From Nitrospira sp. (GTDB lineage Bacteria > Nitrospirota > Nitrospiria > Nitrospirales > UBA8639): a stretch of DNA of 64,000 nucleotides. Positions 32,290-44,288 of this stretch are shown one piece after another. The notes beneath the pieces were generated by a model. It made no database searches and was not told the DNA's origin. It saw only the letters and a list, made by a program, of their open reading frames with translations. The position numbers and the translations under genes are program-made. Numbering within the stretch: position 1 is the first letter of the stretch; the number at the start of each line of letters is the position of its first letter. The stretch spans positions 27,329-91,328 of the forward strand of contig JAPPLK010000106.1 of assembly GCA_028819435.1 (NCBI GenBank). The letters are read 5' to 3'.

Positions 32290-32304
32290 TACATATGTCA
32301 TGTA
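32290..32304. promoter_or_regulatory. Candidate operator TACATATGTCATGTA overlapping a TATAAT -10
   Basis: TACAT/ATGTA inverted arms; TATAAT at 32303-32308 upstream of ATG 32336. Confidence 0.4.
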
Positions 32305-32335
32305 TAATTTATTCAAGCCTTATGTGTTGTTTATG

Positions 32336-33481
32336 TCCAAACCTCAACGGCTAGTGACGAACCGTTTGCGTGAAACGCGGATCGCCGCCGGTCTGTCCCA
32401 AGGAGATTTGGCGCAAAGCGCGGGTATTACGCGACAAGCTCTCTATGCCATGGAAAGGGACCAGTATCTTCCGGGCACGGAAGTCGCGTTGCAACTTGCC
32501 CGTACGCTGGGCGCGTCGGTTGAAGACCTGTTCTCTTTACGGGACACCCGGGAAATTCTTGAGGCGGAATTACCGGCGGATCATTCCAGGGCTTTGAAAT
32601 CCACCAGGGTGAAATTGGCGATTGTAGGGAATCGCCTGTTAGCCAAGCCCGTGATGGAACTGGGGGACGTCTTGAATTATACGATTCCCGCAGATGCCTT
32701 GATTTTAGGGGCGGCTTCCCGAAAAAAACGTTCGGTTTACGTACATCTCTTGAAAAGTCAGAAGGACGTGGAACGGCAGGTTGTCGTGGGGGGGTGCGAC
32801 CCGGCCATTTATCTGGCCGGAGAGCACGTTCGTCAGCAAGAGAATGGCGCGTCGATCGTCGGGTGGAACATGACGAGCCTTGCTGCCTTGCGTGCGTTAA
32901 AACGGGGAGACGTCCACGTGGCAGGAATTCATATGAGGGACCCCCGTTCAGGAGAGTATAATATTCCTTTTGTGAAAAGGCATTTAAAAGGTCAAGCCGT
33001 GACCGTCGTCCGGTTTGCCACGTGGCACGAAGGGTTTTTGGTGAAAGAAGGGAATCCCAAACAAGTCCGTGGCCTCGAAGATTTGACCAGGCCTGACGTT
33101 CGGATGGTCAACCGTGAGAAGGGGGCGGGTGCTCGCTTGCTTTTGGATCATTTGCTGTCGAGTTATCGTATTCCAAGTCAAATCGTGAGGGGCTACGAGG
33201 CCATCGCTTTTTCACAGATCGGACTTGGGCGATATATTTCAGAAGGGAAAGCGGACGTCGGTATTGGGGCGCAGGCCGTGGCCCAATTGTACAATTTCGA
33301 TTTTATTCCCCTGCAGGAAGAACGGTATGACCTGGTCATCCCGACGGCGTACATCGACTCGCATCCCGGCATGAAGATATTTCTGGATACCTTGGCCACG
33401 CGTAAGTTTCAACGGGAAATTGAAGCCTTGGGAGGGTATGACGTCAAAGAGAGCGGGAAGGTCATCAGGCAATTAGTGTAA
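32336..33481 (+). CDS. XRE-family HTH regulator fused to PBP-like substrate-binding domain (putative molybdate-responsive)
   Basis: RLRETRIAAGLSQGDLAQSAGITRQALYAMERDQYLPGTEVALQLAR then PBP-like domain; precedes mod genes. Confidence 0.88.
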   Translation, partial: SKPQRLVTNRLRETRIAAGLSQGDLAQSAGITRQALYAMERDQYLPGTEVALQLARTLGASVEDLFSLRDTREILEAELPADHSRALKSTRVKLAIVGNRLLAKPVMELGDVLNYTIPADALILGAASRKKRSVYVHLLKSQKDVERQVVVGGCDPAIYLAGEHVRQQENGASIVGWNMTSLAALRALKRGDVHVAGIHMRDPRSGEYNIPFVKRHLKGQAVTVVRFATWHEGFLVKEGNPKQVRGLEDLTRPDVRMVNREKGAGARLLLDHLLSSYRIPSQIVRGYEAIAFSQIGLGRYISEGKADVGIGAQAVAQLYNFDFIPLQEERYDLVIPTAYIDSHPGMKIFLDTLATRKFQREIEALGGYDVKESGKVIRQLV

Positions 33482-33488
33482 AGATTAA

Positions 33489-33517
33489 TTGACTTTTAGT
33501 AATTGATAAAATAATAT
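33489..33517 (+). promoter_or_regulatory. Sigma70-like promoter upstream of beta-barrel/modABC
   Basis: TTGACT 33489-33494, 17-nt spacer, TAATAT 33512-33517. Confidence 0.5.
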
Positions 33518-33524
33518 CTTTGTT

Positions 33525-34991
33525 GTGGCCGTGAGCGTTCCAAAGAAGAAGTTCCGGGCTTTGGCGTGGGTGGGTGGTTTGGCCTTGATCGCCTGGGGCG
33601 GTACGGCATCCGCCTCTACGGATGGGTTTCCCCGAGGTGGGGACGGGTGGCTTGAACGGGCTTCGGGGATGCAGCCGACTGAACCCGCGGATGCCATACT
33701 CGTTCAAACGAGGGAATGGAAATGGAATCGGTACCTGAAGGCCGCCCTGCATCTCCCGGATTGGCTGGATCTTGGCCTCGAACACCGGACGCGTTTCGAA
33801 ACCTATGACCATCCATGGCGACGAAGCCAACCTGCCGGTCAAACGGACTCCCAAATTCAACAACGGTCCCGTGTGCGGTTGGGTTTAAACGGGAGGCACG
33901 TCAAGTTTTTGTTTGAGGGACAGGATTCCAGGGTGTATCTCGATGGCGTTGAAAGCTACGTCACCACGGCCATCAGGGATGAAATGGACGTGTTGCAGCT
34001 CATGGCGTCCTTCACGGTCAACAACGCGTTGGAAGCCGGCTTTCGTACCGACCTGCACGTTGGACGGCTGACGATGGACTTCGGCCGGGGTCGCCTGATC
34101 ATTCGGAACGACTATCGCAACACGTCGAACGCGTTTGACGGGGTGCATTGGCAACTAGGACGGGACAAGCAGTGGCGCGTCCGCTTGTTTCTGGTGGAAC
34201 CTGTCCTACGGGACGTCCTCCAACCTAACGAACAGTCAAAACGAAGCGTCTTTTGGGGCAGCTCCTTTGAAATCAATTACATGCCTCGGGTGCGTCTCAA
34301 TGCCTATTATTTCGGGTTGAACGACCAGCGGGGTCCCGAAGCCAGCAGGCATCGAACCTATTCGACTTTCGGCACGCGCTTCTATGACGACCCGAAGCAG
34401 GGAAGGATCGACTATGAAATTGAGAGCGTCCTGCAGACGGGGAAAAGAGGCTACGTCGATCATTTCGCTCATTTTCAGCATATCGATATCGGGTACACCT
34501 TGAATCTCCCATGGTCGCCGCGATTTCTGATTCATTATGACTATGCCAGCGGCGACCGGAACGCAAATGACAACCGGCATTCGGCTTTCGATACGCTGTT
34601 CGGCGCCCGACGTTTCGATTATATGCCCACTGGCAATTTCGGACCCTTTTTTCGGTCGAACTTCAGTTCGCCGGGTTGGCGAGTGATCGTGGTTCCGTGC
34701 CTGGGCTGTGAAGTGCAGCTCAAACATCGGGTGTGGTATCTCGCTACCTCACTGGGTGCGTTTGGCCGTAACGGATTGCATGATCCCACGGGCGGTTCCG
34801 GAAACTTTCTTGGCCACGACCTTGAACTGCGGGCCCAGTGGAGAACCAACGAGAACCTGGAATTCGAATTAGGCTACACGCATTGGTTTAAAGGCAGTTA
34901 TTTCGACAGGCTTCCCGACTCGGCAGGGTTGCCTCCCGGCGGAAACAGGGATAGCGATTATTTTTACATGCAGACGAAGTTCAGGTTGTAA
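33525..34991 (+). CDS. Outer-membrane beta-barrel protein, AlgE/alginate-export-like porin
   Basis: Signal peptide; LDLGLEHRTRFETYDHPWRRSQP, alternating beta-strand pattern, terminal YFYMQTKFRL. Confidence 0.82.
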   Translation: MAVSVPKKKFRALAWVGGLALIAWGGTASASTDGFPRGGDGWLERASGMQPTEPADAILVQTREWKWNRYLKAALHLPDWLDLGLEHRTRFETYDHPWRRSQPAGQTDSQIQQRSRVRLGLNGRHVKFLFEGQDSRVYLDGVESYVTTAIRDEMDVLQLMASFTVNNALEAGFRTDLHVGRLTMDFGRGRLIIRNDYRNTSNAFDGVHWQLGRDKQWRVRLFLVEPVLRDVLQPNEQSKRSVFWGSSFEINYMPRVRLNAYYFGLNDQRGPEASRHRTYSTFGTRFYDDPKQGRIDYEIESVLQTGKRGYVDHFAHFQHIDIGYTLNLPWSPRFLIHYDYASGDRNANDNRHSAFDTLFGARRFDYMPTGNFGPFFRSNFSSPGWRVIVVPCLGCEVQLKHRVWYLATSLGAFGRNGLHDPTGGSGNFLGHDLELRAQWRTNENLEFELGYTHWFKGSYFDRLPDSAGLPPGGNRDSDYFYMQTKFRL

Positions 34992-35004
34992 GAGTACGCA
35001 TGCC

Positions 35005-35766
35005 ATGATCGCCAAACTTCATAGTTTGCTGTTCTTTCTGTTCTTTACGATTTGGCCGGCCGCAAGTGTCGCCGAAGAGGTACGCGTGGCCGTTGCAGCA
35101 AATTTTCTGGCGACCCTTAATGCAATAGCGACCAGGTTTGAGCAAGACAGTGGGCACACCGCTGTTGTCAGTTCAGGTTCCAGCGGCAAACTTTATGCGC
35201 AGATCAAGAACGGTGCTCCGTTCGACGTGTTTTTTTCCGCCGACGTCATGCGTCCGAAATTGCTGGAAGAGGAAGGCTTTGCAGTTCCAGGAAGCCGGTT
35301 TACGTACGCGGTGGGACGATTGACGTTGTGGCATCCCGGACCCGCCGTGATCGAGGGAAATGAACAATCCATACTGTTGCGTAGCGACGTCAGGCACGTG
35401 GCCATTGCGAATCCCAAAACCGCGCCCTACGGTATCGCTGCCAAGGAAGCCTTGCAGTCACTGGGACTTTGGGAACAGGTTCAGGATCGGTTGGTCCGGG
35501 GAGAAAATATCGGACAAACCTTTCATTTTGTCTTTTCGAAGAATGCCCAACTGGGATTCGTCGCCCTTTCGCAGGTTTTGGGGCCCAAGGTTAACGGATC
35601 CGGAAGCCGGTGGGACGTGCCGACGCATTTGCATGCCCCTATCCGGCAACAAGCGGTATTGTTGCGCTTTGGCCAACGTCGGGCAGTTGCACGCGCGTTT
35701 CTGGACTACGTGAAAGGCGTCAGGTCCCGGAACGTTATTGAACGATTCGGTTATGGCTTGGAATGA
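35005..35766 (+). CDS. modA: Molybdate ABC transporter substrate-binding protein
   Basis: VRVAVAANFLATLNAIATRFEQDSGHTAVVSSGSSGKLYAQIKNGAPFDVFFSAD. Confidence 0.95.
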   Translation: MIAKLHSLLFFLFFTIWPAASVAEEVRVAVAANFLATLNAIATRFEQDSGHTAVVSSGSSGKLYAQIKNGAPFDVFFSADVMRPKLLEEEGFAVPGSRFTYAVGRLTLWHPGPAVIEGNEQSILLRSDVRHVAIANPKTAPYGIAAKEALQSLGLWEQVQDRLVRGENIGQTFHFVFSKNAQLGFVALSQVLGPKVNGSGSRWDVPTHLHAPIRQQAVLLRFGQRRAVARAFLDYVKGVRSRNVIERFGYGLE

Positions 35767-35787
35767 TCGAGGCTGGAGAGCCGGAGG

Positions 35788-36471
35788 ATGAACGTACCGG
35801 AAATGGATTGGAGCCCGTTGTGGCTGACCATGCAACTGGCAGGGGTGACCGTTATCGTGTTGTTGCTGGTTGGCACTCCAATCGCATGGTGGTTGGCATT
35901 CACGCGTTCGCGATTCAGGACGTTGGTAGAGGCCGTTGTGGCGCTGCCCATCGTGTTGCCGCCGACCGTACTTGGCTTTTATCTGTTGACGGCACTCGGG
36001 CCCCATGGATTGATTGGCGGGGCTTGGAAAGATTTAACAGGCTCGGCGCTCTCGTTTACTTTTACGGGATTGGTGATCGCCTCGACGCTCTATTCACTGC
36101 CTTTTGTCGTTCAACCCTTGCACGGCGCATTCGAGGCCGTCGGTAAAAAACCTTTGGAAGCGGCCTGGTCGCTGGGCGCCTCAAAGCTTGACGCTTTTTT
36201 TACCGTCGCGTCGCCGATGGCGGTTCGTGGGTACCTGAGCGCCGTTGTCCTGGGCTTTGCCCATACGCTGGGAGAATTCGGCGTGGTCCTGATGGTTGGC
36301 GGTAATATCCCAGGGGTCACCAAAGTCCTCTCCATTGCCATCTATGATCACGTCGAGGTGCTTGAATATACCCAAGCCCATTTCCTGTCGGCCGTGCTTC
36401 TCATATTCAGTTTTCTCGTCCTTACGATCGTGTATGCGGTCAACAGGTGTTTGCCCATTCACGTCTCATGA
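35788..36471 (+). CDS. modB: Molybdate ABC transporter permease
   Basis: ALPIVLPPTVLGFYLLTALG, AHTLGEFGVVLMVGGNIPGVT. Confidence 0.95.
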   Translation: MNVPEMDWSPLWLTMQLAGVTVIVLLLVGTPIAWWLAFTRSRFRTLVEAVVALPIVLPPTVLGFYLLTALGPHGLIGGAWKDLTGSALSFTFTGLVIASTLYSLPFVVQPLHGAFEAVGKKPLEAAWSLGASKLDAFFTVASPMAVRGYLSAVVLGFAHTLGEFGVVLMVGGNIPGVTKVLSIAIYDHVEVLEYTQAHFLSAVLLIFSFLVLTIVYAVNRCLPIHVS

Positions 36472-37550
36472 ATCGACTCGACGCACGATTTTCCATCGAC
36501 TATCCCGGTTTTCGTTTTGACGTGGCTTGCGCGGTTCCGCTGGAAGAGACGACTGCGGTGTTCGGTTCGTCCGGGAGCGGCAAGACCACGCTGTTGAGGT
36601 GCATTGCCGGGTTGACCCGCGTTCCGTCGGGATTTCTTCAATTCGATCAAGCGGTTTGGCAAGACGATGCCCAGGGGATTTTTCTGCCGGTCGAACAACG
36701 ACGCGTTGGGATGGTCTTTCAAGAAGCGCGATTGTTTCCGCATCTGACGGTGACGCAAAATCTTAAGTATGGGATGAAGCGCAGCAACCCATCCTTGCGA
36801 CGCATTGATTTTGCCCACGTCAGTGAATTGTTGGAGCTTGAGTCGCTCTTTGAACGCCGGGTATCCCACTTGTCCGGTGGCGAGCAACAACGTGTGGCCA
36901 TAGGACGAGCACTGTTAACCAGCCCGCAACTCCTGTTGATGGATGAGCCCCTGGCCTCTCTCGACCAACAACGAAAAAAAGAAATTCTTCCCTTTATCCA
37001 GAGATTGAATCGGGAATTGCGGATTCCGGTCCTGTACGTGAGTCACGACCTTCAAGAAATTTTGCCACTCGCCAATCACGTGGTTCTGTTGAAGGAGGGG
37101 AAAGTGGCGGCGACCGGGCCGATCCAGGAAGTCTTTTCGCGGTTGGACCTGCCGGGGTTGGTTGAATCAAACATGGTCGGGGCTATCCTTGAAACGCGAA
37201 TCGTGGAGCATGAACCGCAGTTCGGGCTGACACGAGTTGAATTTTTGGGACAATCTCTTTTCCTGCCTCAACAGGCTCTTCCGCCCGGGGCGCCCTTGAG
37301 GGTACAAATCCTGTCACGTGACGTGAGCCTGGTGGTGGGTGATCCTCCTGCGACAAGCAGCGTGTTAAACACCCTGGAAGCGACGATTGTCGAGGTCAGG
37401 AAATCGCCGGGCGACCAGTATGCAGTCGAAGTGAAACTCGACGTGGGGTGTCCGTTGTTGGCCATGATTACGAGAAAATCTTTTTACCAACTCCGGCTGC
37501 GACCCGGCCAAAAAGTTCATGCTTCCTTCAAGGCGGTAGCTTTAAGTTAG
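36468..37550 (+). CDS. modC: Molybdate ABC transporter ATP-binding protein with C-terminal Mop/TOBE region
   Basis: Walker A FGSSGSGKTTLLRCIAG, LSGGEQQRVAIGRALL; ATGA overlap with modB. Confidence 0.94.
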   Translation: MNRLDARFSIDYPGFRFDVACAVPLEETTAVFGSSGSGKTTLLRCIAGLTRVPSGFLQFDQAVWQDDAQGIFLPVEQRRVGMVFQEARLFPHLTVTQNLKYGMKRSNPSLRRIDFAHVSELLELESLFERRVSHLSGGEQQRVAIGRALLTSPQLLLMDEPLASLDQQRKKEILPFIQRLNRELRIPVLYVSHDLQEILPLANHVVLLKEGKVAATGPIQEVFSRLDLPGLVESNMVGAILETRIVEHEPQFGLTRVEFLGQSLFLPQQALPPGAPLRVQILSRDVSLVVGDPPATSSVLNTLEATIVEVRKSPGDQYAVEVKLDVGCPLLAMITRKSFYQLRLRPGQKVHASFKAVALS

Positions 37551-37577: not shown

Positions 37578-37940
37578 TTATTCCTTCTTTGCGGGCGGCA
37601 GACATTGTTTTCCATCAAACTCGGGGCAGGTTGACTCGCCGTTCGCCAATTTCCATAACTTGATAATCGGCGGATTGGGTTTGCCTTGAAATACAACCAC
37701 AACGTCAATCAGCCCGCCAACGGGTAACTTTGCAATGTGCGGCATTGCCGCCTCGCTGGCTTTGAGCCAGAGAATGCCGCTCCCGCTATTGATCAGGATA
37801 AAGCCTTTGTCCGGGACCACACGGATGATCGGACTGTAAAAACTTCCTTCTTTGCCGGGTTCATCGGTAAACGCCCAAGCGAGCGTAGCCGTCGAGATAA
37901 TAAAGACGAGTAGCAGGACGAATGTAAAAGGACGAAACAT
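37578..37940 (-). CDS. Small secreted hypothetical protein
   Basis: Signal peptide MFRPFTFVLLLVFIISTATLAWA. Confidence 0.7.
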   Translation of the reverse strand: MFRPFTFVLLLVFIISTATLAWAFTDEPGKEGSFYSPIIRVVPDKGFILINSGSGILWLKASEAAMPHIAKLPVGGLIDVVVVFQGKPNPPIIKLWKLANGESTCPEFDGKQCLPPAKKE

Positions 37941-38029
37941 GATGACTCTCCTTGTTATAAGGGAGAAAAAAGTTTGCACATTATGGCAATTTGAAAAATG
38001 GTTGTCCACCGCGGCATGCCATAGCGTGG

Positions 38030-38536
38030 TTATCGTCGTTCGATAGGGACTTCGGTAGCCGTCGCATTCCGGATCCGATAGCCGCGAATGACGGGATTCG
38101 TTTTATCCTGGAGGGAGATAATGACGTGTACGGGTTCGGGTATACTGAGTTTTTCCCTGTAACTCTCGAATTCCATGGCGATTTTAATGTCGGTGATGGA
38201 TGGGCGGGCAGGGCTGAACGTATGCGAATGGTAAAAGGCCTTGAGCGTGGCGTCTTTTTCACGAATATCCTTTTGCGCTTGTGACATTTCCTGTGCATCC
38301 ATCTGGAAGGCGATATCAGCCCGTTCCGCGGGAGAAAGTTGTTTCAGGTCGGATAGCTTGGCCTGGTCGAAACGGTCCAGTTCAGCCTCACTCATTTTGG
38401 CCAGGATGTTGGTGATTCGGTAGTGTTCGGTAATGCTCTCGTTCCGGCCGGCCAAAATGCCGCAGCACTCATGAGGGGCAAGGGCCCGTGCGTGCTCGAT
38501 CATGTCTTCCCAAATGTCTGAAGGGATCGAAAGCAT
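38030..38536 (-). CDS. M67-family JAMM/MPN+ metallopeptidase
   Basis: HECCGILAGR; JAMM motif YHSHTFSPARPSITD (HxHx7Sx2D). Confidence 0.93.
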   Translation of the reverse strand: MLSIPSDIWEDMIEHARALAPHECCGILAGRNESITEHYRITNILAKMSEAELDRFDQAKLSDLKQLSPAERADIAFQMDAQEMSQAQKDIREKDATLKAFYHSHTFSPARPSITDIKIAMEFESYREKLSIPEPVHVIISLQDKTNPVIRGYRIRNATATEVPIERR

Positions 38537-38619
38537 GGTGATCAAGGACGGTCAGCGGGTATGCGGCTTTCCCGATACCACGCCGCAGACGATACATGGC
38601 CGCGTTGGAGTCATGGCCG

Positions 38620-39420
38620 TTACACGCTGCACGAGACGTGATGTTCTTCCAGCGCGGTGATCGTTGGGTTGGCGCCGCAGAGTGGACAGCGGGGATCTTT
38701 GGGGCGTCCGACGCTACGAAACTTCATCTCGAGCGCGTCATAGATCAGTAAACGGTCGGCGAGCGTGTCCCCGATTTCCAGGATTTCTTTCACGGCTTCA
38801 TTGGCCTGCAGAATACCGATCGTGCCCGCGAGGACGCCCAGTACTCCGGCTTCCTGGCAATTGGGGACCAGCCCGGCAGGCGGTGGTTCAGGGTAGAGAC
38901 ACCGATAGCAGGGGTAGCCTTCGTGCGGTTTGATCGTGGCCAACTGCCCTTCAAAACGAAAGATACTTCCCGAGATTAAGGGCTTTTTTGCAAAGTAGCA
39001 GGCGTCATTCACCAGGAACCGGGTGCCGAAGTTATCGGACCCGTCCAACACCAAGTCATAGTTCGGCAACAAGGTCATAATATTTTCGGCGCTGATGTGC
39101 TCCTGGTACGTTTGCACGCGGACGTCGGGATTCAACGCCTCCAGGAGCCGGCGGCCGGATTCGACCTTGGGGACTCCCACGTGGGGCGTCGTGTGGAGGA
39201 CCTGCCGTTGCAGGTTCGAAAGATCAACCACGTCGCCGTCAATCAATCCAATCGTGCCGATACCCGCCGCGCCCAGGTAGAGGGCAATCGGAGAACCCAG
39301 GCCTCCGGCGCCAATCACAAGGACCCTGGCCCGGCTCAGTTTTTGTTGCCCCTTACCGCCAACTTGCTCGAGGATGATCTGGCGGCTGTACCGTTCGATT
39401 TGATCTTCGGTAAAATCCAC
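38620..39420 (-). CDS. moeB: E1-like MoeB/ThiF/HesA adenylyltransferase, paralog 1
   Basis: YSRQIILEQVGGKGQQKLSRARVLVIGAGGLGSPIALYL, CYRCLYPEPP, CPLCG. Confidence 0.93.
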   Translation of the reverse strand: MDFTEDQIERYSRQIILEQVGGKGQQKLSRARVLVIGAGGLGSPIALYLGAAGIGTIGLIDGDVVDLSNLQRQVLHTTPHVGVPKVESGRRLLEALNPDVRVQTYQEHISAENIMTLLPNYDLVLDGSDNFGTRFLVNDACYFAKKPLISGSIFRFEGQLATIKPHEGYPCYRCLYPEPPPAGLVPNCQEAGVLGVLAGTIGILQANEAVKEILEIGDTLADRLLIYDALEMKFRSVGRPKDPRCPLCGANPTITALEEHHVSCSV

Positions 39421-39429
39421 GTCCAGCCT

Positions 39430-39669
39430 CTACTCCACCACGTTGAGTTCAATCGGGTCTACGAGTACGCCCTTCTCCCGCAAACCGGCAATCGCGCGTT
39501 CGATTTCTTCGGTTTCGCCTGAGAATTCCACGTCCATCCAGCCCGTGGTTTCGCGTACGTCGGCCCGGCGAATGCTGGTGACCACTTGATATTCACGCCC
39601 GATCTGGTAAATGACGGGTTCGGGAATCTTTTCTTCCGGAAACCGGATGTGAAATCGCAGTTTAGTCAT
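39430..39669 (-). CDS. NIL-domain protein
   Basis: FHIRFPEEKIPEPVIYQIGREYQVVTSIRRADVRETTGWMDVEFSGETEEIERAIAGL. Confidence 0.85.
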   Translation of the reverse strand: MTKLRFHIRFPEEKIPEPVIYQIGREYQVVTSIRRADVRETTGWMDVEFSGETEEIERAIAGLREKGVLVDPIELNVVE

Positions 39670-39943
39670 GGCTGCCACCGGCGATAGCGGGAACGATAGA
39701 CACCTCGTCACCGTCCTTGACGGGCGTGTCCTTGCCCGTCAGGAACCGGATGTCCTCCTCGTTCAGGTAAACGTTGATAAACCGTCGAATCTCTCCCTGT
39801 TCGTCGCAGATCCGGTCTTTTAACCCCGGATGTGCCGCGTTCAATTGCTCGATCAATTCGCCGATACTGGCGCCGGTTCCTTCGACTTCACTCTTGCCTC
39901 CGGTCATCGGCCGGAGTGGAGTAGGTATGCGTACGGTGATCAT
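39662..39943 (-). CDS. MoaD/ThiS-type ubiquitin-like sulfur carrier with GG-SHD C-terminus
   Basis: MITVRIPTPLRPMTGGKSEVEG...DGDEVSIVPAIAGGSHD. Confidence 0.92.
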   Translation of the reverse strand: MITVRIPTPLRPMTGGKSEVEGTGASIGELIEQLNAAHPGLKDRICDEQGEIRRFINVYLNEEDIRFLTGKDTPVKDGDEVSIVPAIAGGSHD

Positions 39944-41178
39944 GCCGCCCCCTGCTGTCCAAACGTTTGTTCAAATTTTACCAGGCTCGGCGGAATGCGG
40001 AACGGCCGTCCGACCGAATCCACAACGGCTTCCTGGGTCTTCAATCCGTTGCCGGTGATATAGGCGACGGTCACGTCATGCTTCTTGATGGCGCCCTGTT
40101 TCACAAGCTTGCGGAGGGTTCCGATGGTCACGCCTCCCGCGGTTTCCGCAAATATTCCTTCCGTTTGAGCCAGGAGCTTAATACCTTCGATGACTTCATC
40201 GTCGGTGACTGCGTCCATGGCCCCTTGACTTTCCGCGACGGTTTTCAAGGCATAGTAGCCGTCCGCCGGGTTACCAATGGCCAGGGACTTGGCAATAGTG
40301 TTGGGCTTGACCGGTTTGAAGAAGTCGCGACCGTCCTTATACGCCGTGGCGATCGGGGAGCACCCTTCGGCCTGGGCGCCGTTCACCTTTGTGGACACGT
40401 CCTTGAGAAGCCCGATTTTTTGGAATTCGTTGAGTCCCTTCCAGATTTTGGTCAATAACGATCCCGATGCCATGGGCACGACGACCTGGTCGGGAGCCCG
40501 CCATCCCAGTTGCTCCACGACTTCAAACGCGAGGGTCTTCGAGCCTTCGGCATAATAGGGACGGATATTCACGTTCACGAAGGCCCATCGCCGTTCGCCG
40601 GCAATTTCACTGCATAAACGGTTCACGTCATCGTAGTTGCCTTCAATTTCCACGACTTTCGGTCTGTAGATCAAGTTGCCGAGGACTTTGGCTGCTTCCA
40701 GGTCACCTGGGATGAAGACGTAACATTGCATGCCGGCCTGCGCCGCGTGCGCGGCGACCGAATTAGCTAAATTGCCGGTGGAAGCACAAGCTGCGGTTTC
40801 ATACCCCAGTTCCCTGGCGCGCGTCAGGGCCACGGCCACGACCCGGTCCTTGAACGACAGGGTCGGCTGGTTGACGCAGTCGTTCTTAATGTACAGTTCA
40901 TCGAGTCCCAAAAAGGCCCCCAGGTTTTTAGCGTGAACGAGTGGCGTCATGCCGGCGTGCAGACCGATCGTTGGGCCGCCTTCGATTGGGAGCAATTCCT
41001 TGTACCGCCACAGCGACTTGGGACCAGCTTCGATCGAGGCTCGTGACATCGCCTCCCTGATTTCATCGTAATTATATTTGACTTCCAGGGGGCCAAAGCA
41101 CAGTTCACAGACGTGAAGGGCTTCCGTGGGATATTCTTTCCCGCACTCGCGGCAAATGAGGGCTTTCATCTTTGCCAT
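39940..41178 (-). CDS. thrC: Threonine synthase(-like) with N-terminal zinc-ribbon
   Basis: LICRECGKEYPTEALHVCELCFGPLEV, FIKNDCVNQPTLSFKDR-type PLP Lys motif, CASTGNLANSVAAHAA. Confidence 0.93.
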   Translation of the reverse strand: MAKMKALICRECGKEYPTEALHVCELCFGPLEVKYNYDEIREAMSRASIEAGPKSLWRYKELLPIEGGPTIGLHAGMTPLVHAKNLGAFLGLDELYIKNDCVNQPTLSFKDRVVAVALTRARELGYETAACASTGNLANSVAAHAAQAGMQCYVFIPGDLEAAKVLGNLIYRPKVVEIEGNYDDVNRLCSEIAGERRWAFVNVNIRPYYAEGSKTLAFEVVEQLGWRAPDQVVVPMASGSLLTKIWKGLNEFQKIGLLKDVSTKVNGAQAEGCSPIATAYKDGRDFFKPVKPNTIAKSLAIGNPADGYYALKTVAESQGAMDAVTDDEVIEGIKLLAQTEGIFAETAGGVTIGTLRKLVKQGAIKKHDVTVAYITGNGLKTQEAVVDSVGRPFRIPPSLVKFEQTFGQQGAA

Positions 41179-41199
41179 GGTTCAACCTCCTTGCGGAAA

Positions 41200-42027
41200 T
41201 CAGGAAATACCGAGCGCCCCTGGCGCTTGCAGTTGGCACGCCTCCTGTTCGTGCTCAAACAGTTCGGTAACGTCCGGATGGTTCCCGCACAAGGGACACC
41301 TGGGATTTCGTTTCGTCCTTATTTCACGAAATGCGGTTTTTCGAGCATCAAAGTCGAGAATACGGTCGGTGAGCGGGTCCCCGATCCCAAGGATCAATTT
41401 CAGTGCCTCCGTGGCCTGGATGGTTCCAATAATACCAGCTACGACGCCGATGATGCCAGCTTCCTGACAACTCGGCACGAGTCCGGGAGGTGGGGGCTGC
41501 TGGAAGATGCACCGGTAGCAGGCTGATTGTCCGGGCACGATGGAGAACACCCGGCCTTCGAACCGGAGGATCCCGCCGTGGACAAGGGGTTTGCCTGCAA
41601 AATAGCACGCATCGTTGATGAGGAACTTGGCCGGAAACGTATCCACGCCGTCAATCACCACGTCATAGGGCGCAATGTAATTCATCGCATTGGAGGCGGT
41701 AAATCGATCCTCGTACGTTTCAACGTTCACGTCTGGATTCAGGAGAAAGATTTTTTCTTTCGCCGATTGCACCTTGGACCGTCCGACGTCGGGAGTATGG
41801 TGCAGTACCTGTCGTTGAAGATTGGACAGGTCGACCACGTCGCTGTCGATCAAGCCAATCGTTCCGATACCGGCTGCGGCCAGGTATAAGGCCACCGGTG
41901 AGCCCAGCCCTCCGGCTCCGACGACAAACACTTTTGCCTGGGCAATTTTCTTTTGTCCCTTCCCGCCGACCTCCGGTAACAGGATGTGCCGGCTGTACCG
42001 GGTGATTTGTTCTTCCGTGAAACTCAT
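41200..42027 (-). CDS. moeB: E1-like MoeB/ThiF/HesA adenylyltransferase, paralog 2
   Basis: YSRHILLPEVGGKGQKKIAQAKVFVVGAGGLGSPVALYL, CYRCIFQQPPPPG, CPLCG. Confidence 0.93.
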   Translation of the reverse strand: MSFTEEQITRYSRHILLPEVGGKGQKKIAQAKVFVVGAGGLGSPVALYLAAAGIGTIGLIDSDVVDLSNLQRQVLHHTPDVGRSKVQSAKEKIFLLNPDVNVETYEDRFTASNAMNYIAPYDVVIDGVDTFPAKFLINDACYFAGKPLVHGGILRFEGRVFSIVPGQSACYRCIFQQPPPPGLVPSCQEAGIIGVVAGIIGTIQATEALKLILGIGDPLTDRILDFDARKTAFREIRTKRNPRCPLCGNHPDVTELFEHEQEACQLQAPGALGIS

Positions 42028-42040
42028 ATAGATCGACTCG

Positions 42041-42970
42041 TCAGATATTAAAATATTTTTCGATGCTCAAGTAGCGTTCGCCCGTGTCGCACAACACCGT
42101 GACCACGTGTTGGTCAGGCCTGAGGTCTTTCGCGACCTGTTGGGCTCCAAAGACGTTAGCTCCTGCGGATATCCCGACGAGCAGCCCCTCTTTTTTGGCC
42201 AGCAGTTTCGTAGTCTGGTAGGCTTGGTCGTCGGTGACCCGAATAATGTCGTCAATGATGGAACGATTGAGGACTTTTGGCACAAAACCTGCGCCGATGC
42301 CTTGAATCTTATGCGGGCCGGGTGCTCCTCCCGAGAGTACTGGGGATCCAGCCGGTTCCACGGCAACGATTTTGGTGCCCGGCGCACGTTCTTTCATGAC
42401 CTCTCCGCAACCGGTAATGGTTCCGCCCGTGCCGACTGCTGCGACAAATGCATCAATCTTGCCGTCCATGGCATCCCAGATCTCAATCGCGGTCGTGGCC
42501 CGGTGAATGGCGGGATTCGCCGGATTGGAGAATTGGTCAGGCATGAAATATTCCGGATTTTGGGCAATGATGTTTTCAGCTTCTCGAATCGAACCCTGCA
42601 TGCCTTCCCACGCCGGGGTCAAAATCAATTGCGCGCCATAGGAGGACAACAGGCTTGCTCGTTCGAGGCTCATGCTTTCCGGCATGACCAGGATCAATTT
42701 ATACCCGCGAACCGCAGCGATTAAGGCCAGTCCGATTCCCGTGTTCCCGCTGGTCGGTTCGACGATCGTTCCCCCGGGCTGGAGCGTGCCGGTACGTTCC
42801 GCCTCATCGATCATATTGAGGCAGATCCGATCTTTGACGCTCCCGCCGGGGTTGGCGAACTCCACTTTTCCGAAAATCGTAGCGCCGCCTTCCTCGGAAA
42901 GGCGATTCAACCGAACCAAGGGTGTCTTGCCTATTCCCTCCGTAATCTTTGATAAATATCGGGTGGTCAC
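42041..42970 (-). CDS. cysK: Cysteine synthase (CysK/CysM family)
   Basis: IGKTPLVRLNRL, NPGGSVKDRICLNMI, PTSGNTGIGLALIAA, GTGGTITGCGEV. Confidence 0.94.
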   Translation of the reverse strand: MTTRYLSKITEGIGKTPLVRLNRLSEEGGATIFGKVEFANPGGSVKDRICLNMIDEAERTGTLQPGGTIVEPTSGNTGIGLALIAAVRGYKLILVMPESMSLERASLLSSYGAQLILTPAWEGMQGSIREAENIIAQNPEYFMPDQFSNPANPAIHRATTAIEIWDAMDGKIDAFVAAVGTGGTITGCGEVMKERAPGTKIVAVEPAGSPVLSGGAPGPHKIQGIGAGFVPKVLNRSIIDDIIRVTDDQAYQTTKLLAKKEGLLVGISAGANVFGAQQVAKDLRPDQHVVTVLCDTGERYLSIEKYFNI

Positions 42971-43167
42971 GCCCCTCCACCCATATAGAACAGAAATTCT
43001 ACCTTATCGCCGTCTTGGACCTTCGTAGTTGGGAGCCGGTCTCGTTCGACGATTTGCGTATTGAGTTCAACGGCCACCATATGCGGGTCGATATCTTTCT
43101 GTTTCAGGACGTCCATAACAGTGTCGGCCTGTACTTCTTCGGGTTTACCATTAATGGTGATTTGCAT
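42967..43167 (-). CDS. thiS: ThiS/CysO-type ubiquitin-like sulfur carrier
   Basis: MQITINGKPEEVQADTVMDVL...DGDKVEFLFYMGGGA; 4-bp overlap with cysK. Confidence 0.9.
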   Translation of the reverse strand: MQITINGKPEEVQADTVMDVLKQKDIDPHMVAVELNTQIVERDRLPTTKVQDGDKVEFLFYMGGGA

Positions 43168-43258: not shown

Positions 43259-43987
43259 TTATGAAAGCAGTTCGGGTACCAGGTCTTTGGCGCGGCCTTG
43301 GATGGCCACGTCCACGAGGTCGGAATTGGGCGTCGGGTCCAGGTTCAATTCCACCACGAAAGCGCCATTGTCTTTGGCAATGGGCCCGAAAGACGCGGCA
43401 GGATAGACGACTCCGGACGTGCCGATAATCAGGAGTACGTCGCAATTTCGCAACGCGTTGAAACTCTGTTGCAAATCCTCAGGATCAAGAGATTCTCCGA
43501 ACCAGACGATATGAGGACGAAGAAGTCCGCTGCACGTCACGCATTCCGGCAAGATGGCAATGGGCACGTCCCGATTGACGGCAACCTTTCCGCATTGCGT
43601 GCATCGGACCTTCCAGATATTTCCATGAATCTCCGACAGGCGTTGAGAACCCGCCAAGGGGTGGAGCCCATCGACGTTTTGTGTAATGAGCCAAAAATTT
43701 TTGACTCTGTGTTCCAGTTCAACGAGGGCGGTATGGGCCGGGTTCGGCTGCTTGGTTGCAATGAGTTCTCGGCGCCAGTTGTACCATTCCCACACGAGTT
43801 TGGGATTTCGGGCAAAGGCCTCGGGTGAGGCCAGTTCTTCGGGCCGGTGATCCTTCCAGAGCCCATCCGCCCCGCGAAACGTCGGCACGCCGCTGTCCGC
43901 TGAGATGCCGGCTCCGGTCAGGACTGTCACCGCTGTGGCGCGGGCAAGCCTCGCCTTCAGTTCCTGGATTCCGGGGGAAGCGGTCAT
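43259..43987 (-). CDS. cobB: NAD-dependent protein deacylase (sirtuin)
   Basis: VLTGAGISADSGVPTFRGADGLWK, TQNVDGLHPLAGS, ELHGN-like SEIHGNIWKVRC. Confidence 0.95.
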   Translation of the reverse strand: MTASPGIQELKARLARATAVTVLTGAGISADSGVPTFRGADGLWKDHRPEELASPEAFARNPKLVWEWYNWRRELIATKQPNPAHTALVELEHRVKNFWLITQNVDGLHPLAGSQRLSEIHGNIWKVRCTQCGKVAVNRDVPIAILPECVTCSGLLRPHIVWFGESLDPEDLQQSFNALRNCDVLLIIGTSGVVYPAASFGPIAKDNGAFVVELNLDPTPNSDLVDVAIQGRAKDLVPELLS

Positions 43988-44018
43988 GCCCAATGAAAAA
44001 CGTCGATCAGGAGGGGGG

Positions 44019-44288
44019 TTATCTTTGTTGAGCTTCGAGGTGGTCAAGTCTTGCTTTGAGAACACCTACATCTGTTTCAAGCGATTGGATTCGATGATCC
44101 AGTTCTGCAAAAGAAAATTTCAGCAACGCCCTAACTTCTCTAAACTCGTCCTTCACATCTTCACGAAATTGTTGGACTTGGGTCAGGATGACTTGATGGC
44201 CTTCGGCTACGTGCTGAAGATCGTGTCGAAGTCCTTCGACCACAACGCTCACATGGCGTTTGAGTTGCTCCATATCGTCTGCATTCAT
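44019..44288 (-). CDS. Small coiled-coil protein
   Basis: MEQLKRHVSVVVEGLRHDLQHVAEGHQ...FAELDHRIQSLETDVGVLKARLDHLE. Confidence 0.75.
   Translation of the reverse strand: MNADDMEQLKRHVSVVVEGLRHDLQHVAEGHQVILTQVQQFREDVKDEFREVRALLKFSFAELDHRIQSLETDVGVLKARLDHLEAQQR

Follow-up and report, generated by a model that had tools for sequence, protein, structure and literature searches.

The stretch of DNA analysed here, called the window below (64,000 nucleotides of contig JAPPLK010000106.1 from a Nitrospira sp. genome), carries at 38030-43167 a putative operon of eight genes, all on the minus strand, for two ubiquitin-like proteins (Ubls), two E1-like adenylyltransferases, two pyridoxal 5'-phosphate (PLP) enzymes, a NIL protein and a JAMM peptidase. 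The gene order is Ubl1 (ThiS-type)–CysK–E1a–ThrC-like (MetM-like)–Ubl2 (CysO-type)–NIL–E1b–JAMM, and the Pfam/NCBIfam matches are, in the same order, ThiS, PALP/CysK, ThiF, PALP/ThrC, ThiS (SAMP1/MoaD-arch), NIL, ThiF and Prok-JAB. Adjacent genes overlap by 4 to 5 bases at the Ubl1/CysK, ThrC-like/Ubl2 and Ubl2/NIL junctions, and the remaining intergenic gaps measure around 10 to 85 bases. As set out below, we consider it likely that the operon encodes a double protein-thiocarboxylate pathway, which would make both cysteine and homocysteine from sulfur carried on the two Ubls.

The cysteine module comprises Ubl1 (42967-43167), a ThiS-type sulfur carrier of 66 amino acids with the tail FYMGGG-A (TIGR01683, 66.5 bits), CysK (42041-42970, with the start codon amended to GTG 42970), a cysteine synthase of PLP fold type II (TIGR01139, 449.9 bits, cut-off 351), and E1a (41200-42027), a MoeB/ThiF-type adenylyltransferase lacking a rhodanese domain (ThiF, 284.5 bits). 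The homocysteine module comprises the MetM-like protein (39940-41178; annotated ThrC), which has an N-terminal four-Cys segment and is predicted from a tree and 43 fixed alignment columns to be an O-phosphohomoserine-dependent homocysteine synthase, Ubl2 (39662-39943), a CysO/MetO-type sulfur carrier of 93 amino acids with the tail AIAGG-SHD, and E1b (38620-39420), also a MoeB/ThiF-type adenylyltransferase (ThiF, 266.8 bits). The NIL-domain protein (39430-39666, with the start amended to ATG 39666; PF09383, 56.3 bits) has around 79 amino acids and lacks a ferredoxin part, and the JAMM/Mec+-like metallopeptidase (38030-38536; Prok-JAB, 62.8 bits) has a complete motif (ECCG...HSH...PSITD) and most likely starts at ATG 38536, a TTG lying 9 bases upstream at 38545.

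One scan of genome contigs returned 80 related loci, all from Nitrospira-type bacteria as judged by identity. The same order and orientation of all eight genes was found in 69 of the 80, the other 11 being interrupted by contig ends or assembly breaks, and conservation of the eight-gene order far exceeds chance. Class-level relatives, with a ThrC-like protein around 70 % identical, also keep the gene order. A close ThrC-like protein (E <= 1e-60) is present in 352 of the 396 Nitrospirota genomes searched, while plasmid searches covering other phyla returned a single close relative, from Nonomuraea. The preliminary description of this DNA had listed eight co-directional minus-strand genes of these families with tight or overlapping junctions, all of which are present, and had proposed gene-order conservation across Nitrospirota and other phyla as a check, which came out in its favour within Nitrospirota; at the level of sequence, neither of its refuting outcomes (a neighbourhood confined to close strains, or a Ubl adenylated by neither E1) is borne out. 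The operon was also seen, with a ThrC-like protein sharing 86 to 87 % identity with that of the window, in two metagenome-assembled genomes titled Nitrospinota (L021 and L024), the names or bins of which are probably wrong.

Each of the two modules is also found alone. Deeper Nitrospirota have the genes hom-E1-JAMM-MetM-Ubl2-NIL-thrC in this order, without CysK or Ubl1, and in the closed genome G017 a gene matching TIGR02535 ('proposed homoserine kinase') and then lysC come after thrC; i.e. the Met module stands alone, at the very site where O-phosphohomoserine is formed and consumed. Conversely, Nitrospira UBC2 harbours a second, free-standing Ubl1-CysK-E1 cluster (L211:5749-7840, corresponding to G002:C1:2745748-2747839) that lacks MetM, NIL and JAMM; around 3.5 kb downstream of it there is a CysE-like match scoring below cut-off. 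In the E1 tree, E1b is sister to the single E1 of the Met-only clusters, and the E1 of the Cys-only cluster falls inside E1a.

Evidence for specific partners is also given by gene fusions, i.e. in-frame Ubl1-CysK fusions in five relatives (L047, L193, L198, L201 and L206), Ubl2-NIL fusions in two (L016 and L199) and a NIL-E1b fusion in L020. The nucleotide sequence has no stop codon at the Ubl1-CysK or Ubl2-NIL junctions; in-frame GTG or ATG codons near the junctions make internal starts possible in some of the fusions. A precedent for such fusions is MoaX of M. tuberculosis, in which MoaD is joined to MoaE and an unidentified protease cleaves after Gly82 (PMC4326299). With each module found alone and the E1 tree and fusions in agreement, the early proposal of two parallel Ubl + E1 + PLP enzyme modules holds, and that of an Asp-family sulfur amino acid as the second product is supported and can be refined: this product is very probably homocysteine, made from O-phosphohomoserine by the MetM/MetO route.

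This refinement concerns the ThrC-like enzyme, which scores 301 bits against the thrC equivalog model TIGR00260 (cut-off 167), so that annotation pipelines will name its gene thrC. However, a canonical thrC, the product of which is 35 % identical to the operon protein, is located elsewhere in the window genome between hom and lysC, leaving the operon copy free for another reaction, and almost all family representatives examined have both types. A tree of 73 proteins unites the operon type with the Nonomuraea metM-like protein in a clade with 100/100 support and puts canonical ThrC on the other side, and at 43 alignment columns the MetM-like type and ThrC have different fixed residues. These include the loop VNSxNPxRxEGQK of ThrC, which reads VNxNxRPxYAEGSK in the MetM-like type, and GNAGN, which reads ASGSL; the differing loops presumably contact the substrate phosphate and PLP. 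The Nonomuraea protein carries the MetM-side residue at nearly all of the 43 columns, and its gene lies 40 bases behind an S-adenosylmethionine (SAM) riboswitch (RF00162, 68.7 bits) and is followed by a GG-ended carrier, as reported for metM/metO of Streptomyces (Hasebe 2024, cited in PMC12172450). A carrier adjoins the enzyme in the operon as well, with Ubl2 directly downstream and ending in AIAGG plus 0 to 9 residues. The canonical thrC found elsewhere, the position in the tree and the fixed columns led us to reject the operon protein as the threonine synthase. An AlphaFold model built from 16 close sequences was poor (predicted local distance difference test, pLDDT, 41) and was not used.

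Searches for other homocysteine routes point in the same direction. The best PF01053 (MetB/C/Y/Z) score in the window genome is only 30.9 bits, and scores stay under 45 bits in three further Nitrospira-type genomes, while true MetB/Y/Z members in the same phylum reach 314 to 505 bits. The DUF39 route was ruled out for the window genome, in which HcyBio/DUF39 (PF01837) has no match. A PF01053 enzyme is present in all eight genomes sampled of a family without the MetM-like gene (f18), and lacking in 28 of the 36 MetM-bearing genomes sampled. The operon CysK is also the only cysteine synthase in the window genome (G000) and in G001 and G003, and the operon appears to hold both the sole recognisable cysteine synthase and the sole recognisable homocysteine-making candidate of Nitrospira-type bacteria. 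In another family (f16; G006, G016, G025, G034, G042 and G049) neither a MetM-like gene nor a MetB/Y/Z-type enzyme was found, and another route to homocysteine may therefore exist there.

In the cysteine module, the synthase had been labelled CysK/M. Its CysK side stands, with 449.9 bits as CysK vs 288 as CysM (cut-off 394) and a CysE encoded in the window genome, while a CysM-type enzyme does not fit. Considering that CysK is the sole synthase, scores as CysK-type and coexists with CysE, the sulfur acceptor is likely to be O-acetylserine. The structures closest to Ubl1 are those of ThiS proteins, e.g. PDB 2k5p, which has the same MGGG motif near its end; Ubl1 was rejected as the thiamin ThiS, as a separate ThiS adjoins ThiG. 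Ubl2 is nearest to CysO and its kin (85.3 bits, E 2.9e-23 for M. tuberculosis CysO, 3dwg), and was likewise rejected as the MoaD of molybdopterin synthase, a separate one lying in moaC-moaD-moaE-moaA. Therefore, the CysO-like carrier belongs to the Met module and the ThiS-like one to the Cys module. A fifth ThiS/MoaD-fold protein of 93 amino acids without a Gly-Gly end (HDGMSTKGLGPSFY) was seen at L105:1483-1764, downstream of a CxxxCxxC radical-SAM-like gene.

This bears on the parallel drawn earlier with CysO-CysM-Mec+ of M. tuberculosis, which acts together with MoeZ and whose CysM is described as using O-phosphoserine. The shared set of Ubl, PLP cysteine synthase, JAMM and MoeB-like E1 upholds the parallel, but the CysO homologue is Ubl2 and goes with MetM, while the Ubl of the cysteine module is ThiS-type; moreover, the PLP enzyme here is CysK-type and the E1s lack rhodanese.

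A link to methionine is also suggested by regulation in relatives, as SAM riboswitches lie upstream in L191, L204 and L220. In L204, a SAM-II riboswitch is followed by metK, ahcY and the eight genes, with 5 bases separating ahcY and Ubl1, and in L220 a SAM_alpha riboswitch lies ahead of a JAMM-Ubl1-CysK-MetM-Ubl2-E1-NIL operon, both riboswitches being of the SAM-II type and scoring only slightly above the Rfam threshold. The model of the NIL protein, of moderate confidence (pLDDT 77), finds its best PDB matches in the MetN C2 methionine-binding domain (3dhx, 2qsw and 3ced), a domain that binds methionine and causes transinhibition (PMC8416018). From this fold, we infer that NIL probably senses the product of the Ubl2/E1b/MetM branch or serves as an adaptor there.

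Based on the observed gene content and pairings, we infer the following cleavage sites and chemical steps. JAMM would trim the tails of Ubl1 (GGG-A) and Ubl2 (GG-SHD) and expose their terminal glycines, whereupon Ubl1 would be adenylated by E1a and Ubl2 by E1b, and the acyl-adenylates would be converted into thiocarboxylates via a sulfur donor encoded outside the operon. Thiocarboxylated Ubl1 would then give its sulfur to CysK, replacing the acetyl group of O-acetylserine to yield cysteine, and thiocarboxylated Ubl2 to the MetM-like enzyme, replacing the phosphate of O-phosphohomoserine, drawn from the threonine branch, to yield homocysteine and then methionine. Every free copy of Ubl1 read with confidence ends in FxMGGG plus one or more residues, and in exactly one residue after this motif in 81 copies.

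Several observations weigh against this double pathway. MetB/Y/Z-type enzymes are kept in 8 of the 36 MetM-bearing genomes (Fisher p = 0.04, the genomes not being independent), so that exclusivity is only partial. The Ubl2 tail is AGG plus 0 to 9 residues and about 40 % of the copies already end in GG, which means that trimming of Ubl2 is not universal. In both E1s only the ThiF domain was found, without rhodanese. The search of the window's own operon gave no SAM riboswitch at the Rfam gathering threshold. Lastly, a cyanobacterial ThrC that is 51.6 % identical to MetM and encoded beside a metO-like gene was active as a threonine synthase and as a deaminase, and a role in methionine synthesis was not evident (PMC12172450), and hence not every member of the family need be a homocysteine synthase.

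The latter activities in vitro, together with the passed TIGR00260 cut-off, would also fit the ThrC-like enzyme being an additional threonine synthase, or a threonine deaminase, that is regulated by the Ubl. We regard this as very improbable, given the coexisting canonical thrC in nearly all genomes examined, fixed differences that extend to the substrate-phosphate and PLP loops, the SAM riboswitches upstream of relatives and the lack of any other recognisable homocysteine synthase. Less probable still is protein conjugation, in which lysines of the PLP enzymes would carry the Ubls until JAMM, acting like a desampylase, takes them off. While Ubl2 scores above the NCBIfam SAMP1 cut-off, JAMM gives a match to the desampylase model, albeit under the cut-off, and SAMP1-HvJAMM1 provides a precedent (PMC4443979), the gene context is purely that of sulfur and methionine metabolism with no E2/E3-like gene, and the fusions put the Ubl ahead of its client at the GG junction, which argues for processing.

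The modules could also be less dedicated than we propose, with Ubls and E1s being interchangeable and PLP, thiamin and molybdopterin enzymes sharing one pool of carriers. Closed genomes with ThiS and MoaD have only two MoeB/ThiF-type E1s, E1a and E1b are 59 % identical, and the deeper relatives L205 and L220 serve both Ubls with a single E1. Such interchange is nevertheless unlikely, as the E1 tree separates E1a and E1b along with their matching clusters, each module occurs alone and the fusions join specific partners.

In the closed genomes G001 and G003, the only two MoeB/ThiF-type E1s and the only strong Prok-JAB match are all located in this operon, so that ThiS and MoaD, and with them thiamin and molybdopterin synthesis, probably depend on these enzymes as well. 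In Nitrospira-type genomes, MoaD extends past its GG (AGGSEGC, AGGNS, SGG + 15), and ThiS often does so (GGGAR, GGGAE, GGGTSPYL), suggesting that JAMM processes these carriers too. Tail-extended carriers, i.e. MoaD of the window genome and Nitrospira relatives and ThiS of several, were seen at L099:1459-1752 and in L093, L094, L095, L096, L097 and L098. The window genome has two further weak ThiF matches, one of them in an open frame of 479 amino acids (G000:C66:1393-2319) with ThiF-like and Prok-JAB-like matches, perhaps an E1-JAB fusion, for which no counterpart was found in the three other genomes searched. It is tempting to speculate, though we hold this as a whole to be rather doubtful, that one JAMM and two E1s form a hub for Ubl1, Ubl2, ThiS and MoaD, that the Ubl-client fusions are cut after Gly-Gly and that NIL provides methionine feedback.

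As for the surroundings, a Sir2-family deacylase gene (43259-44065) adjoins the operon upstream in the window and in many Nitrospirales relatives, but none was seen in that position in loci titled Nitrospira (e.g. L039 to L059). Directly downstream of JAMM, a small open reading frame (37578-37943) with a signal-peptide-like start is kept in many relatives (36 to 94 % identity) and has no match in Pfam or NCBIfam. Converging on the operon from the plus strand (32300-37550) are genes for a ModE-like regulator, an alginate-export-like porin and a molybdate-type ABC transporter, comprising a solute-binding protein, a permease and an ATPase with TOBE.

The logic of the pathway is already known from CysO/CysM/Mec+, from HcyS and above all from MetM/MetO. 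MetM of Streptomyces (Hasebe et al., 2024) reportedly converts O-phosphohomoserine into homocysteine, taking the sulfur from thiocarboxylated MetO. The present case resembles it in a ThrC homologue set apart from canonical ThrC and an adjoining GG carrier, with a SAM riboswitch upstream of the actinobacterial gene (here that of Nonomuraea), but the operon adds NIL, its own E1, JAMM and a Ubl-dependent cysteine module, and its carrier keeps a tail. HcyS/HcyD/HcyF of Wolinella, which reportedly work with MetY (attributed to Krishnamoorthy and Begley, 2011), likewise lead to homocysteine via a protein thiocarboxylate and involve E1 and JAMM; the window genome lacks a MetY-type (PF01053) enzyme and has a ThrC-fold enzyme instead. 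Operons joining ThiS/MoaD, E1, JAB and cysteine synthase were described by Iyer, Burroughs and Aravind in 2006 (rows 4c to 4e, PMC1779556), with one Ubl/E1 set, row 4c E1s fused to rhodanese and no mention of a threonine synthase homologue, in contrast to the two sets, ThiF-only E1s and ThrC homologue found here. The DUF39-NIL/ferredoxin-COG2122 pathway (PMC5764234) likewise ties a NIL domain to homocysteine synthesis, but here DUF39 is missing and NIL stands alone without ferredoxin. The novelty lies in the union of both modules in one conserved operon, in how this operon is regulated in relatives, in the fusions, in NIL as a constant partner and in the hub that is probably shared.

The operon thus offers a testable answer to how homocysteine can be synthesized without MetB/MetY/MetZ in Nitrospira and most sampled Nitrospirota, by way of genes to which pipelines give the names 'threonine synthase', 'ThiS' and 'MoaD'. 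With two separately known thiocarboxylate pathways in one operon, the specificity of carriers, E1s and clients can be compared side by side. The operon also provides carriers that are naturally fused to their clients, JAMM and E1s that probably act as a common hub for four carriers and, within a biosynthetic operon, a relative of the MetN methionine-binding domain that stands by itself. If the hub were true, cysteine, methionine, thiamin and molybdopterin synthesis would lie behind one shared proteolytic gate, Ubl1-CysK and Ubl2-NIL would be cut after Gly-Gly like ubiquitin-ribosomal fusions, and NIL would sense methionine on the carrier/E1/MetM complex. As the key enzyme of nitrite oxidisers needs molybdopterin, a link between the supply of sulfur amino acids and that of molybdopterin would, if true, matter physiologically for these bacteria.

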